Shown here in pieces: positions 4,901-10,291 of a stretch of 64,000 nucleotides of DNA. Location of the stretch: NCBI RefSeq assembly GCF_016888135.1, contig NZ_JACSWB010000292.1, positions 62,001 through 126,000 on the forward strand, read 5' to 3'. The stretch's first letter is position 1, and the number at the start of each line of letters is the position of its first letter. This stretch comes from Leptolyngbya sp. CCY15150. Lineage in GTDB: Bacteria > Cyanobacteriota > Cyanobacteriia > RECH01. The position numbers were made by a program, and so were the translations under genes. The notes beneath the pieces were generated by a model. That model did no database searches. It saw only the letters and a list, made by a program, of their open reading frames with translations, and was not told where the DNA came from.

Positions 4901-5312
4901 CTATCTGACTTGCTGCAACAACTCTTGAATGGATAAAACGGGTATAGGTGAACTCAAAAAACCTTGAGCATCACGAGTCACAATTACTTCTGATCCTTGT
5001 TTAACGGCGCTAAAAATTTGAACAGCGTCTTCAAAATCAGCTAAGCCAGAGTTAAAAGCCAATTCCAGAACAACTCGATCAACTGGACAAATCATCATGG
5101 CAGTCAGTATTTCTGAGACTGCTTGCCGCGCTCGCTCAATATTACGGGTATATCTGCGTGAGATATAGAAAATATCCGTTAGTGTTGTTGCTGTAACATA
5201 GCCAACAATCTCGCCTCCATCAATTGCCTGAAACAGCAGTTCTGCATCCTGCGAAAATGGCTCTCGTTGCAGCAAAAAATCTAGAACAATATTGGTCAAC
5301 TAAAACTCTCAC
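4901..5312 (-). pseudogene. PIN-domain (VapC-like) toxin with an N-terminal frameshift
   Basis: The body is a PIN-domain RNase of about 135 residues: TNIVLDFLLQREPF near the start, a central VDRVVLELAFNS, the acidic SGLADFEDAVQ motif, and the C-terminal VTRDAQGF. PIN toxins begin with a strand ending in the catalytic Asp (xLLDTNI). Here a GTG at 5312 overlaps the antitoxin stop (GTGA), the usual coupled start, and reads V-R-V-L-V-D, but then the frame breaks. The in-frame codons for T-N-I-V-L-D begin only after a 2-nt shortfall at about 5293-5297. A TTG at 5299 would give a protein lacking the catalytic Asp. Either the toxin is inactivated or there is a base-calling error. The antitoxin gene is intact. 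Confidence 0.75.
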
Positions 5313-5539
5313 TGAAGATACTTCTCCGCCCGTCTCTCTTCCAGCATCACTGCCACTTCTTCATCTGTTGGTGCAGGCTGGTCTGTTTTTAACAATCCCC
5401 TCATCCGCCAAATTGCACTAGAACGATCTGGTTGAGCAACACTCGTATCTTGTAAGGACTCAACGATAGCAGAGATCAGTGCGAGGCGATCGCTGGGCGG
5501 CAACTTGAAGATTTGCGCTTTTAGTTCTTGTAGCAACAT
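5309..5539 (-). CDS. Antitoxin of the PIN-toxin module
   Basis: A 76-residue acidic/helical protein, starting MLLQELKAQIFKLPPSDRLAL and containing SDRLALISAIVESLQ, the pattern of the small addiction-module antitoxins that precede PIN toxins in cyanobacteria. Its TGA overlaps the GTG of the toxin gene by 4 nt (GTGA), indicating translational coupling. The C-terminal half, DEEVAVMLEERRAEKYLQ, is a likely toxin-binding helix. Family-level assignment rests on size, context and coupling rather than on a diagnostic DNA-binding fold, so the type II antitoxin call is an inference. Confidence 0.75.
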   Translation of the reverse strand: MLLQELKAQIFKLPPSDRLALISAIVESLQDTSVAQPDRSSAIWRMRGLLKTDQPAPTDEEVAVMLEERRAEKYLQ

Positions 5540-5966: not shown

Positions 5967-6046
5967 CTGATCAGCTAACACCCGTCCGTTGCAGCGAGGT
6001 GTTAGCCTGCTCTAAACTTAGACGTATACAAATACCTGTTCTTATA

Positions 6047-6277
6047 ATGAGCTATCGTGACATCATTACGATTGAGCCTGATAAACGTGGTGGCAAGCCG
6101 TGTATCCGCCGGATGCGCATTACGGTCTATGATGTCTTGGGCTGGTTAGCGGCTGGCATGTCTAACGCTGAGATCATTGACGACTTTCCAGAACTGACAG
6201 AAACCGATATTAGAGCCTGCTTGGAATTCGCCGCTGATCGCGAGCATCGTTTAGTGGCATCAGTGAGTGCCGCTTGA
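6047..6277 (+). CDS. DUF433 antitoxin-like protein
   Basis: A 76-residue protein starting MSYRDIITIEPDKRGGKPCI and carrying RITVYDVLGWLAAGMS and a helix-turn-helix-like EIIDDFPELTETDIRACLEFAADRE, the full DUF433 pattern. DUF433 proteins are antitoxins, usually paired with a downstream DUF5615 PIN-like toxin. I start at the internal ATG 6047, because the 16 upstream in-frame residues do not belong to the family. No intact toxin follows: only a short remnant-like sequence directly after the stop. It is therefore an orphan antitoxin. Confidence 0.85.
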   Translation: MSYRDIITIEPDKRGGKPCIRRMRITVYDVLGWLAAGMSNAEIIDDFPELTETDIRACLEFAADREHRLVASVSAA

Positions 6278-6370: not shown

Positions 6371-7126
6371 TTACTTTTGTAGCACTACCGGACTATCAAC
6401 TGTGACTGTTTGTGCCAAGTACTTAAGAGTATCAATTTGCTCTGAGGCAGTTACTGTCTTACCATCTATCCAATTAGATGGAGGCACAGAAGGATTTAGC
6501 TTTCCAAAAGCTTGAAGGCAATGTGAGTAAGCAATTGCCGCCTGCAGTCTGTAGCTTCCTGTAAATTTTCCATCATTGCCAAGGATCGACCACGCGATCA
6601 TTCCTTGCTTGATCCCATCCAAAAGAGCTACTGCCAGTTCTTCGATATCATTTATAGTCAGATCAAAGTGATGTTGATTAGCTGGATAGAATTCCAGATT
6701 ATTTTTAGGAGTAAAGTCGTAATAAGTAGTTTTAGGAAGACAAGATATTGGAATGATTAGGGAACCACGTGTACAACTAGACTTCCGTTTAGAGCCTCTA
6801 TTAGAACGAAAGTTACTTTGCGACATACCTTCTGCTACAACGGCAAAAGCATGTCCACGATCTAGAGGGTCAAGAGTAGCTGAGCTATAAACTGATACAC
6901 CTGAATCTGCTCCCTCCAAAACAAATTGGATAACTCTATCAACAAGTTCTTGATTCCAACTTTGATTAGGATAATGAATTGCTTCATTAATTATAGTAAT
7001 AAATTCAACACGATTCCTACAAAGGCGCACTAAATTCTCAGGGTGAAGCTTACTGGGTTTTGAACTTGTAGCCCTCCCTAAAGATATATAAATTCGCTGC
7101 AAGAAGTTAGGAAATGATGGCATCAT
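6371..7126 (-). CDS. Hypothetical protein, third gene of the AT-rich operon
   Basis: A 251-residue protein I do not recognise, with no signal peptide or obvious membrane span. Visible features: an N-terminal basic helix (NFLQRIYISLGRATSSKPSK), RVEFITIINEAIHYPNQSWN, a Ser/Arg/Lys-rich linker around residues 105-122 and a helical C-terminal half (NDIEELAVALLDGIKQGMIAW; SYRLQAAIAYSHCLQAFGKL). The ATG overlaps the upstream stop by one base (TAATG), so it is translationally coupled to the middle gene. HIP1 sites are rare here and the base composition is AT-richer than the chromosome around it, suggesting acquired DNA. Confidence 0.65.
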   Translation of the reverse strand: MMPSFPNFLQRIYISLGRATSSKPSKLHPENLVRLCRNRVEFITIINEAIHYPNQSWNQELVDRVIQFVLEGADSGVSVYSSATLDPLDRGHAFAVVAEGMSQSNFRSNRGSKRKSSCTRGSLIIPISCLPKTTYYDFTPKNNLEFYPANQHHFDLTINDIEELAVALLDGIKQGMIAWSILGNDGKFTGSYRLQAAIAYSHCLQAFGKLNPSVPPSNWIDGKTVTASEQIDTLKYLAQTVTVDSPVVLQK

Positions 7127-7878
7127 TAACTCAGAAGTTCGCTTATGCCTCTAACAAGTTGTGAATGAGGCAATTTTTGAGTAGCAAGTACTTGAAATAG
7201 AAAATCTCTACCTAAACTACCACCGCATGTAAGTAGAAAAGCTGCTGCCGTTTGAGCTAAACGTTTGTCAGTGGATTTAAGGAATGAACTAACAGAGGCA
7301 ATCAAACTGCCGTTATCAGTTGAAAATTCTGCATCACTGAGAGCCGCGATTAGAATTCGGACGCTCTTTGAAGGGATAGTTTGAATATAACCAGCAAAAA
7401 ATGTTTGATATTCATGAGGAGCATCCATTAACCACTCAGCTATCAAACTCGAGGTCTCGTATAAATTATTATCACCCTCCTGAAAATGAGAAATTCTGCC
7501 AAAGCACTCTCTAACTTTATGAGGAATACTTTTTAGAGTTGCAAATTGGACTGAGGAAAACGTAGATGTCCCTGCTTCTTGTAAATACTGAAAGCTTGCT
7601 ACACCTTTGTGCAGAAATATTCTCCGAACAGCTTCATTTTGGAGAATTCTTCTATCAGCTGAAATATGATTAATTGAAGCTTGAAAATACTCTTCAAGTA
7701 TCGAGGAGGTGTCATCTGTAAGAGTTGTCGAAGCAAGAGAAAAAAGTATCCTTTTAGATTTTTCTTTGGTTTCATGTAAGGGGTTTAGGCTGGAGAGCTT
7801 GTTGTAATTCTTCTGTGATACACCAGCGGAAAAAGTTTCCTGCTTCTCGGTTAAATTGGTCGAGAGAGTGAGTGACAT
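7126..7878 (-). CDS. Hypothetical helical protein, second gene of the AT-rich operon
   Basis: A protein of up to 250 residues, predicted largely alpha-helical (SSILEEYFQASINHIS; LQNEAVRRIFLHKGVASFQYLQ; VRILIAALSDAEFS; TAAAFLLTCGG), perhaps HEAT-like, but not assignable. The start is doubtful. The only ATG in frame is at 7878 and forces a 107-nt overlap with the upstream TIGR04255-like gene. An ATG that overlaps the upstream stop (ATGA, near 7774) lies in another frame that closes soon. Either an unusual long overlap, a non-standard start, or a frameshift near 7750-7774 is implied. The 3' end is coupled to the next gene by a 1-base overlap. Confidence 0.6.
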   Translation of the reverse strand: MSLTLSTNLTEKQETFSAGVSQKNYNKLSSLNPLHETKEKSKRILFSLASTTLTDDTSSILEEYFQASINHISADRRILQNEAVRRIFLHKGVASFQYLQEAGTSTFSSVQFATLKSIPHKVRECFGRISHFQEGDNNLYETSSLIAEWLMDAPHEYQTFFAGYIQTIPSKSVRILIAALSDAEFSTDNGSLIASVSSFLKSTDKRLAQTAAAFLLTCGGSLGRDFLFQVLATQKLPHSQLVRGISELLS

Positions 7879-8554
7879 CGTTTATCTCCGTGTTATTCTC
7901 AGTATAGAAATCAGCATCTATTAAATATCCCAATTCGTCGGATTCATCTTCCCTGGCAAGACCATACCGAACCCGTAGAACTGCATCTGCATAATCAAGA
8001 CGACAAGCGAACACTGATAATGCTTCAGTGAAATCATGCTCTGGCAAATTATCAGCTACGAAAACTCCTAATACAGGAGGTTGAAGCAATCTTCGCCAAG
8101 GATGCTGTTCTAATCCAAGTTCCGAGCGGATAATGAGGTCTTGATAACGTAATCCAACTCTAGTGAAGTGTGAAGGAGAATAATACTTAACTAATAAGCT
8201 AATAGCAGAAGATAAACGAGATCTAAAGTCTTCCCACTTCTCATAATCTACCGTTGAAAGAGCAATAAAGTCACTAGATAAGACAAGTTTCCACTTTCCT
8301 TCCTTGTCAAAAAACTCGTAAGTCAATCCTTGACCCATTACTATAGGAGGTGAGTTAGTCTGAGGATTTGACAAAAATGGTAGTTCAATAGCATGAGAAG
8401 TATTCAAAGTTGGGTATTCAGCACGAATTGCTTCCTGAAAAGCAACCGGAACCTCAGTGTCAATCCGTAGAATTTTTGGAAAGCGAAGTTGACAAATCAC
8501 CTCTAAAAGAGGGTTCCGGGAATACGTTACACGTTGAGATTCAGGGAAATTCAT
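7772..8554 (-). CDS. TIGR04255-like protein, first gene of the AT-rich operon
   Basis: A 260-residue protein that opens with the family-like signature RNPLLEVICQLRFPKIL, followed by EAIRAEYPTL, a central YEFFDKEGKWKLVLSSDFIALST and GLRYQDLI, and the usual helical end LDQFNREAGNFFRWCITEEL. TIGR04255 proteins are sporadically distributed and of unknown function, which fits accessory DNA. The gene heads a three-gene minus-strand operon with coupled or overlapping junctions and an AT-rich composition. It is transcribed away from the integrase relic to its right. No DNA-binding or catalytic motif is visible. Confidence 0.75.
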   Translation of the reverse strand: MNFPESQRVTYSRNPLLEVICQLRFPKILRIDTEVPVAFQEAIRAEYPTLNTSHAIELPFLSNPQTNSPPIVMGQGLTYEFFDKEGKWKLVLSSDFIALSTVDYEKWEDFRSRLSSAISLLVKYYSPSHFTRVGLRYQDLIIRSELGLEQHPWRRLLQPPVLGVFVADNLPEHDFTEALSVFACRLDYADAVLRVRYGLAREDESDELGYLIDADFYTENNTEINDVTHSLDQFNREAGNFFRWCITEELQQALQPKPLT

Positions 8555-8933
8555 GTCTTATCAAAAAGTTACTACTATGAGTTTCCACATCAAGAAAGAC
8601 AAAACCATGTGCTTTTTGGCGTACACGTGTGCTAACAATGCATAGGTATGACCCGCCAGGTTAATTATCTGCGTTGCGTTACCCTCATGGCAATGCCCGC
8701 TTCCGACGTCATCGCAGCTAATAAGCCCTCCTTATCATAAGCCAGTGCAGCAACTCAACCTATGTAGATCAAGTAGATATAGTATTTATTATAGCCTCTC
8801 AGTTGCAACCATTATAGATATGAGGAGTCGAGGGCTAACTATTGTTTATGGTGAACATCCCTCCTCTGATCTGCATAACACCTCTCCCAAGGATGATTAG
8901 TAAGACCACAATTGAATGTTACTCCCTGCAGAG

Positions 8934-9109
8934 GGGACTAGGCTGAAAATTGTCTACATAGTCTTTTATCTGGGTGTTAAGCAGACTTCCATCAGCCTAT
9001 ACACCTAATAGGGGAATTATGCTGATTAGATGCTTGATAAAGCTCTAAATAGGGTAATTATGCAGACTGACGTCAATATAATACGCCCATTTCAGGGTGT
9101 TATGCGGCT
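8934..9109. repeat. Degenerate ~15-bp motif repeated about every 40 bp
   Basis: Imperfect copies of a GGGnnTTATGCnGA-type motif start at about 8934, 8972, 9012, 9052 and 9095, spacings 38, 40, 40 and 43 bp. They end about 85 bp before the start of the integrase relic. They look like an array of recombinase binding sites or the subterminal repeats of a mobile element rather than a CRISPR, because the intervening and repeat lengths vary and the motif is short. The rest of 8555-8933 is AT-rich with no convincing gene. Confidence 0.55.
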
Positions 9110-9192
9110 ATCTTCAAACAATCTTCACGGTCAGCCCAGGATCAACGCGTGCAGTATTTAGTACACGGGTTCTAGTTGAAGATTCCTGACTT

Positions 9193-9439
9193 ATGATCGA
9201 TTCTCAACCCAGAAAACTCTTGGATCAAGTTCGCGATGTGATGCGGCTGAAGCACTACTCCTATCGAACCGAGTAGACCTAGGTCGGTTGGATTCGTCGC
9301 TCCATCATTTTTCATCACAAGACCTATCCCAAGGATATGAGTGCCCCTGAGATTGAAGCCCTTTTGACACATCTAGGCGTATGGAAATGTGTCCGCATAA
9401 GCATCGCCTTCAACCTCACGAGTTGAAGCGGAGTTGCCC
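9193..9439 (+). pseudogene. N-terminal relic of an integron-type tyrosine recombinase (IntI-like)
   Basis: From the ATG at 9193 the translation gives QPRKLLDQVRDVMRLKHYSY, then VGWIRRSIIFHHKTYPKDM and APEIEALLTHLGV, the N-terminal SAM-like domain of integron integrases and their solitary relatives. Two TAG codons interrupt it where Q and Y are expected (E-Q-T-Y-V). After LTHLGV the frame shifts twice, with traces of AFNAL and VEAELP. The catalytic domain is absent. It is a dead fragment about 80 residues long. Confidence 0.8.
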
Positions 9440-9508: not shown

Positions 9509-10078
9509 TCAACCCACCTGCAACACCTGGGTAGCGGTTAGGTTCAGATTGCCCAGCAGCGGCGAGGCCATGGGGTCGTCCCCGGAATATACCGCCTCTT
9601 CATAAAGTCCCTCCACCCACTCCAGCACCGTCACCCGCTGTTGCATCGGGTCTACAATCCAATATTCAGCAATGCCCCGTGCAGCATACTCCGATCGCTT
9701 ATAGCGATAATCCCGATTCTCCTGCCCTGGGCTGACCACCTCAACCACCAACAGCGGCGGCGGCATATCAAGCAAGACAAGCGATCGACTGGCTCCTGCT
9801 AATGCAGCGACTCCCTCATCTGAGAAGATCACCAGATCGGGGACACGCACAGATAGGCGAGTGCTACTCACCGCAACCTCTGTCTTCATCGACAGGCGAT
9901 CAAATGAAATCCCCAGCTTCAGGAACGTCGCCACCAAAAACATTGCGATGCGGCGGTTCAGTTCACTCTCGGCAGGCATCGCAATCAAGTCCCCATTTTC
10001 TAATTCATACCAGTTATCCGTTCCATCGTCATAGGACAGGAAGTCCTCAAAGGTCATCTTTGCAACGGCAATCGTCAT
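9509..10078 (-). CDS. Uma2 family (DUF820) putative endonuclease
   Basis: A 189-residue protein of the PD-(D/E)XK-like Uma2 family, abundant in cyanobacteria: N-terminal MTFEDFLSYDDGTDNWYELE, central VRVPDLVIFSDEG, then PPLLVVEVVSPGQENRDYRYKRSEYA and GIAEYWIVDP. The conserved acidic/Lys pattern (PDL...EVVS...YKRSEY) is intact, so catalytic activity is plausible. I start at ATG 10078 because a perfect AGGAGG lies 7 nt upstream. The biological role of Uma2 proteins is poorly known. It is monocistronic and ends against the relic zone. Confidence 0.9.
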   Translation of the reverse strand: MTIAVAKMTFEDFLSYDDGTDNWYELENGDLIAMPAESELNRRIAMFLVATFLKLGISFDRLSMKTEVAVSSTRLSVRVPDLVIFSDEGVAALAGASRSLVLLDMPPPLLVVEVVSPGQENRDYRYKRSEYAARGIAEYWIVDPMQQRVTVLEWVEGLYEEAVYSGDDPMASPLLGNLNLTATQVLQVG

Positions 10079-10291
10079 CTCCCTACCTCCTGACACATGT
10101 GACGGCCCCCTGCATGACGTTGAAGCCGAGTCTCTCCATTATCCCAACATCTCCTTCAGTTCAAGCATCCCCTTGTGATGTTGAGTCCGGTTGAAGGGTC
10201 ATGACTGGAATATCCTGCATTCAATTCCCCGCTTCGCCGCCCCCTTGGCAAGGGAACTACAGATATTGGGGTTCTGCCACAGCCTTGAAGT

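Follow-up and report, generated by a model that had tools for sequence, protein, structure and literature searches.

The operon consists of three consecutive open reading frames on the minus strand of the window (the whole 64,000-nucleotide stretch of DNA analyzed here), all of them intact, to which we refer as genes A, B, and C (Table 1). The overlap is 107 nt between A and B and 1 nt between B and C (TAATG), which confirms both the coordinates and the coupling given in an earlier, sequence-only reading of this DNA. Both proteins are encoded in the A/B overlap (7772-7878), each in its own frame. The GGAG in front of the B start is kept in the copy of the operon in Nodosilinea sp. LEGE 06152 (L033) and in the viral-contig relative L049. 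Overlaps of 98 to 122 nt are also present at L004, L009, L012, L033, L034, L049, and L051. Among the loci checked, A/B overlaps of about 100 to 120 nt occur only in the clade of A proteins that includes the window copy, with the exception of L061 (95 nt). The operon has a GC content of 0.391, versus 0.526 for the window, and 0 HIP1 sites (GCGATCGC), versus about 5 expected from the window density (147 in 64 kb). It is therefore AT-rich and HIP1 poor, as had been noted. Promoter-like sites across the region are at chance level overall, and the best match (8693 to 8664) is within the block common to the window and Nodosilinea. No Rfam RNA was found in the operon neighborhood.

Table 1. Coordinates of the operon and its features in the window
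Feature	Position	Strand	Remark
Gene A	7772..8554	-	260 aa; TIGR04255 family; constant component
Gene B	7126..7878	-	250 aa; orphan middle protein
Gene C	6371..7126	-	251 aa; orphan third protein; effector position
A/B overlap, out of frame, 107 nt	7772..7878	-	sequence
GGAG, likely Shine-Dalgarno of B within A	7886..7889	-	7 nt before ATG
Candidate promoter TTGCCA-18-GATAAT	8664..8693	-	10/12 consensus; hexamers unchanged in L033
Extent of transferred cassette common to Nodosilinea sp. LEGE 06152	6390..8842	-	single blastn block

Gene A had been described as TIGR04255-like, and it is in fact a full-length member of that family, matching NCBIfam TIGR04255 over profile positions 2 to 251 of 252 (E = 2.3e-49; 168.5 bits against a cut-off of 30). 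It is the only TIGR04255 copy in the host genome. Its conserved residues are P15, P48, Y104, R132, R136, Y137, D213, and F242. A low-confidence structure model (mean pLDDT 66.8; six alignment rows) has two beta-alpha-beta-beta-beta-alpha halves, and no internal duplication was detected in the sequence. When the model was used in Foldseek searches, TATA-binding proteins (TBPs) were the top PDB matches and recurred among the named viral matches (E about 3e-4; Foldseek probability about 1). However, the TM-scores were about 0.2 to 0.37, with similar values for the viral TBPs, and did not reach the 0.5 threshold for a TBP fold. Therefore, the A model is like TBP in topology only. The A sequence had no match to TBPs. 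We rejected the idea that A is a SecB-like chaperone, because neither sequence nor fold supports it: 26 TIGR04255 proteins had no Pfam matches, and hence none to SecB, and SecB was absent from the 50 PDB fold matches listed for the low-confidence A model. Scans of viral contigs with the window A and two other A sub-alignments found no matches.

The other two genes had been said to match nothing known, and searches of Pfam, NCBIfam, PADLOC, and, by sequence, the PDB were negative for both. Relatives of B were found only in Nodosilinea (80% identity) and at L049 and L050 (about 30%), each directly behind an A. When 84,980 species genomes were scanned with C, the one relative found was in Nodosilinea (84 to 85% identity), inside the same trio. 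If B and C are partners of A, then their homologues should occur with TIGR04255 genes, and those found all adjoin one. No matches were found when viral contigs were scanned with C, and its structure model (pLDDT 39.7) was too low for use. We also rejected C as a distant cysteine peptidase or a divergent member of another C family, since hhalign comparisons with the C families were all without signal. For B, hhalign revealed that its N terminus resembles those of B proteins from L004, L009, L012, and L022 (E = 0.0008 to 0.002 over about 35 residues). However, this region is in the overlap with A, and the likeness may largely reflect the conserved C terminus of A. Between the window and Nodosilinea, five of the six changes in the overlap alter B, and four of those five spare A. 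A shared N-terminal docking tag in B ("SSGxS," seen by eye) was dismissed when an unbiased search for motifs gave nothing that stood out convincingly from shuffles. A membrane-anchored B was also rejected; only some HTH-type B proteins have a hydrophobic N-terminal stretch.

The A-B-C set of Nodosilinea is complete, and its gene order and type of overlaps match those of the window. It aligns to the window as one block (8842 to 6390) with 86.8% identity, and the flanks are unrelated on both sides. The dN/dS values between the two copies were 0.11 for A, 0.29 to 0.31 for B (after the overlap), and 0.18 to 0.21 for C. These are well below 1, and all three window genes are under purifying selection. 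Therefore, A, B, and C are not chance open reading frames; the cassette moves as a unit, and its three proteins are maintained.

Of the 386 genomes of the phylum that were searched, 33 have TIGR04255. Plasmids of Rhizobium, Sinorhizobium, Mesorhizobium, Vibrio, Acinetobacter, Klebsiella, Pseudomonas, Rhodococcus, Kocuria, Thermus, and others also carry it, as do prophage or viral contigs. Large contigs, probably chromosomal, carry the window copy and most of the cyanobacterial ones. After near-duplicates were removed, B was directly after A at 57 loci (56 within 30 nt; median, -4), and C was after B at 56 (53 within 30 nt); the search for partners extended only about 160 nt, and each start codon was taken from the longest open reading frame, so single intergenic distances are rough. 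The genes upstream of A differ between loci. With two coupled genes following in nearly all loci examined, the earlier suggestion of an undescribed system with a TIGR04255 head and two partners is strongly supported. A has no such partners at L046 and L076, and at L074 the next genes look different.

Several individual copies are worth recording. The solitary TIGR04255 gene of L046 (4809-5624) is on a human fecal contig filed as phage, and that of L076 (2963-3760) is in a distant genome of the phylum. On a plasmid of Rhizobium sp. CB3060 (L034, 1171-3468), the trio is just behind a multiubiquitin/ThiF/DUF6527 operon, a bacterial ubiquitin-like conjugation set that is likely to be a conflict system. 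Complete TIGR04255/HTH/TQxCD trios (the TQxCD group of C proteins is described below) are in Acinetobacter-type prophage or viral contigs (L063 to L066), in one case (L065) directly behind a long phage-like gene. On a Klebsiella pneumoniae plasmid (L057, 3992-6256), the trio follows a phage tape-measure gene at a distance of a few genes.

Grouping by blastp gave about a dozen groups of C proteins, unrelated to one another, and about fourteen groups of B proteins, and the B groups go together with the C groups. Recognizable C proteins include HEPN (L024, L025, and L041), PIN (L029 and L071), and zeta toxin (L056) types, and the HEPN proteins of L024 and L041 have no evident RxxxxH motif. The C proteins of L034 and L051 have invariant HVG and GLTCAT motifs, which, from the motifs and general knowledge, we take to be those of permuted papain-like peptidases. 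The commonest C proteins, the TQxCD group, are nameless and without a known relative, and their usual B has an Xre-type HTH, as in antitoxins. Unlike the C proteins of some relatives, the window C belongs to no toxin family known to Pfam, NCBIfam, or PADLOC, and its position suggests that it is the effector. In the relatives, PADLOC gave weak matches only, one of an HTH segment to RmrA and the other a marginal one to HEPN.

The A tree shows that C has been swapped among close A proteins. The clade of the window A (seven rows; SH-aLRT 99) has at least four C types: that of the window, the peptidase-like type, TQxCD, and that of L004/L022. L004 and L012 are sisters in this tree and have different C types. 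The tree was made without L034, whose A is 40% identical to the window A.

Most of our loci were located by way of A, so that the count of C genes without A is biased. Searches that began from C and were blind to A do not have this bias. We took two unrelated C families and searched for them in 386 genomes that had been drawn regardless of A; the profiles were built from A-linked copies, so that very distant free-standing relatives could be missed. Both families together were found in 13 genomes, 12 of which had A 326 to 939 nt upstream. The TQxCD family accounted for nine genomes (eight with A at those distances), and in G328 its C and A are on different contigs. The second family was in four genomes, all with A 549 to 685 nt upstream. 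This linkage is not a coincidence, because so few of the 386 genomes have TIGR04255 at all.

Damaged loci were also found. A TQxCD-type C was split by about 1.5 kb (G278:C5:31906-34313; L085 and L087), C was cut short beside a transposase (L061), or it was missing altogether (L049 and L050), and in all of these A and B were intact. At L067, A was broken and C was absent. No intact C without A and B was seen among the loci and 386 genomes searched.

Near the operon, the window has genes for a PIN_3 protein (4901-5299; next to it, at 5309-5539, is a weak antitoxin match), a DUF433 protein (5999-6277), and a Uma2 protein (9509-10096). The sequence-only reading placed toxin-antitoxin remnants here. 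The genes are present, but they look intact rather than relict. It also proposed a dead integrase and a NACHT-type relic, for which we found no match in five further small open reading frames searched near the operon. The window DUF433 gene has no obvious DUF5615 partner, and Nodosilinea has DUF433 and a DUF5615-like gene (8552-9339) near its cassette.

We propose, at slightly better than an even chance, that the operon is a member of a widespread modular A-B-C cassette in which A and B restrain the effector C until a trigger arrives. C would be a swappable effector or toxin, with a toxin fold in the recognizable cases. A and B would jointly keep it inactive, with B binding C and A binding or stabilizing B. 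This hold would be broken by a trigger, of which phage infection or element loss is the most likely, and the freed C would stop growth. We infer the toxicity of C, its neutralization by A and B, the trigger, and likewise the chemistry of the window C and the role in defense. The trio is probably a new toxin-based self-protection or antivirus module. It had been put forward as a candidate defense system, and the system part of that proposal is strongly supported. The defense part is circumstantial: no known defense model in PADLOC matched A, B, or C, and the points in its favor are the toxin types among the third genes, carriage by prophages and plasmids, and the toxin-antitoxin neighbors. Phage defense is plausible, and the chief alternative to which the same mechanism could lead is stabilization of a mobile element. 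A broader proposal, which we make tentatively and with less than even confidence, is that these trios are a new tripartite immune or addiction class. In it, the constant TIGR04255 protein, in which the alpha-beta architecture is duplicated and Arg, Tyr, and Asp residues are nearly invariant, would be a sensor or chaperone for exchangeable B-C pairs, including those with nameless effectors like the window C.

The trio might instead be a defense or conflict system without antitoxin logic, in which A is a sensor or recruiter, B is an adaptor, and C is inert until recognition and harmless alone. Carriage by prophages and plasmids, modular effectors, and a peptidase-like C are all consistent with this, and the invariant polar residues R132, R136, Y137, and D213 of A could bind a ligand. 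However, proteins of the PIN and zeta types are usually active by themselves, and it is C that is lost or broken, so we consider such a system rather unlikely. Less likely again is that the same biochemistry serves retention of plasmids or prophages rather than fighting phages. Many copies are on conjugative plasmids and in prophages, as expected of such an addiction module, but the probably chromosomal location of the window copy and most cyanobacterial copies argues against it.

The TBP-like topology of A and the HTH of the commonest B might also suggest a regulatory trio, in which A and B control genes and C is an ordinary enzyme or ligand-binding protein. We regard this as improbable, because the A model is of low confidence with TM-scores of 0.22 to 0.37, the recognizable C proteins are toxin types, and the variable upstream genes mean that there is no constant target. 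Finally, low GC, the lack of HIP1 sites, and orphan genes are what a chance cluster of decaying AT-rich genes would have. That explanation, to which we give almost no credence, is refuted by the Nodosilinea trio, with its overlaps and unrelated flanks, and by the dN/dS values for all three genes. Furthermore, relatives of B and C were found only beside A.

The strict linkage to two partner genes, one of them swappable and with recognized toxin types, makes TIGR04255, until now a name without a function, part of a testable system. The A-B-C trio around it is what is new here. TIGR04255 and the next two genes are also a handle for finding effector families that are absent from libraries. More generally, a family called "sporadic" can be a marker for the constant component of a modular conflict cassette that plasmids and prophages carry in several bacterial phyla.

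The trio is apparently undescribed, as well as widespread and mobile. The NCBIfam entry of which A is a full-length member (sporadTIGR04255, function unknown) gives no partners or mechanism, and among open-license papers we found none naming TIGR04255 and no description of such a trio. The A model resembles the TBP fold in its two halves and in the proteins that lead its PDB matches, but it differs in its low TM-scores and lack of a sequence match, and confidence in the model is low. Type II toxin-antitoxin systems (VapBC/PIN, HEPN, epsilon-zeta, and Xre) are similar in that some C proteins are PIN, HEPN, or zeta types and some B proteins have an Xre-type HTH. However, the trio has three genes, not two, with a constant extra protein, and the window B and C are in none of those families. 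Tripartite toxin-antitoxin-chaperone systems are described as three-part toxin modules, and in CmdTAC a phage protein can draw off the third component so that the toxin is released (PMC5105189, PMC11618068). The trio differs from these systems in its gene order (A-B-C, with the toxin-type gene last) and in A, for which neither the sequence searches nor the fold matches listed gave SecB. In the N termini of the B proteins, no common motif and no chaperone-addiction sequence was found. Because A shows no likeness to SecB in these searches, the trio is not a canonical toxin-antitoxin-chaperone system, and we intend the comparison as an analogy, not as membership. What the two would have in common is three coupled genes, a toxin-type protein with a cognate partner that often has an HTH, and one further protein that is used with different toxins.
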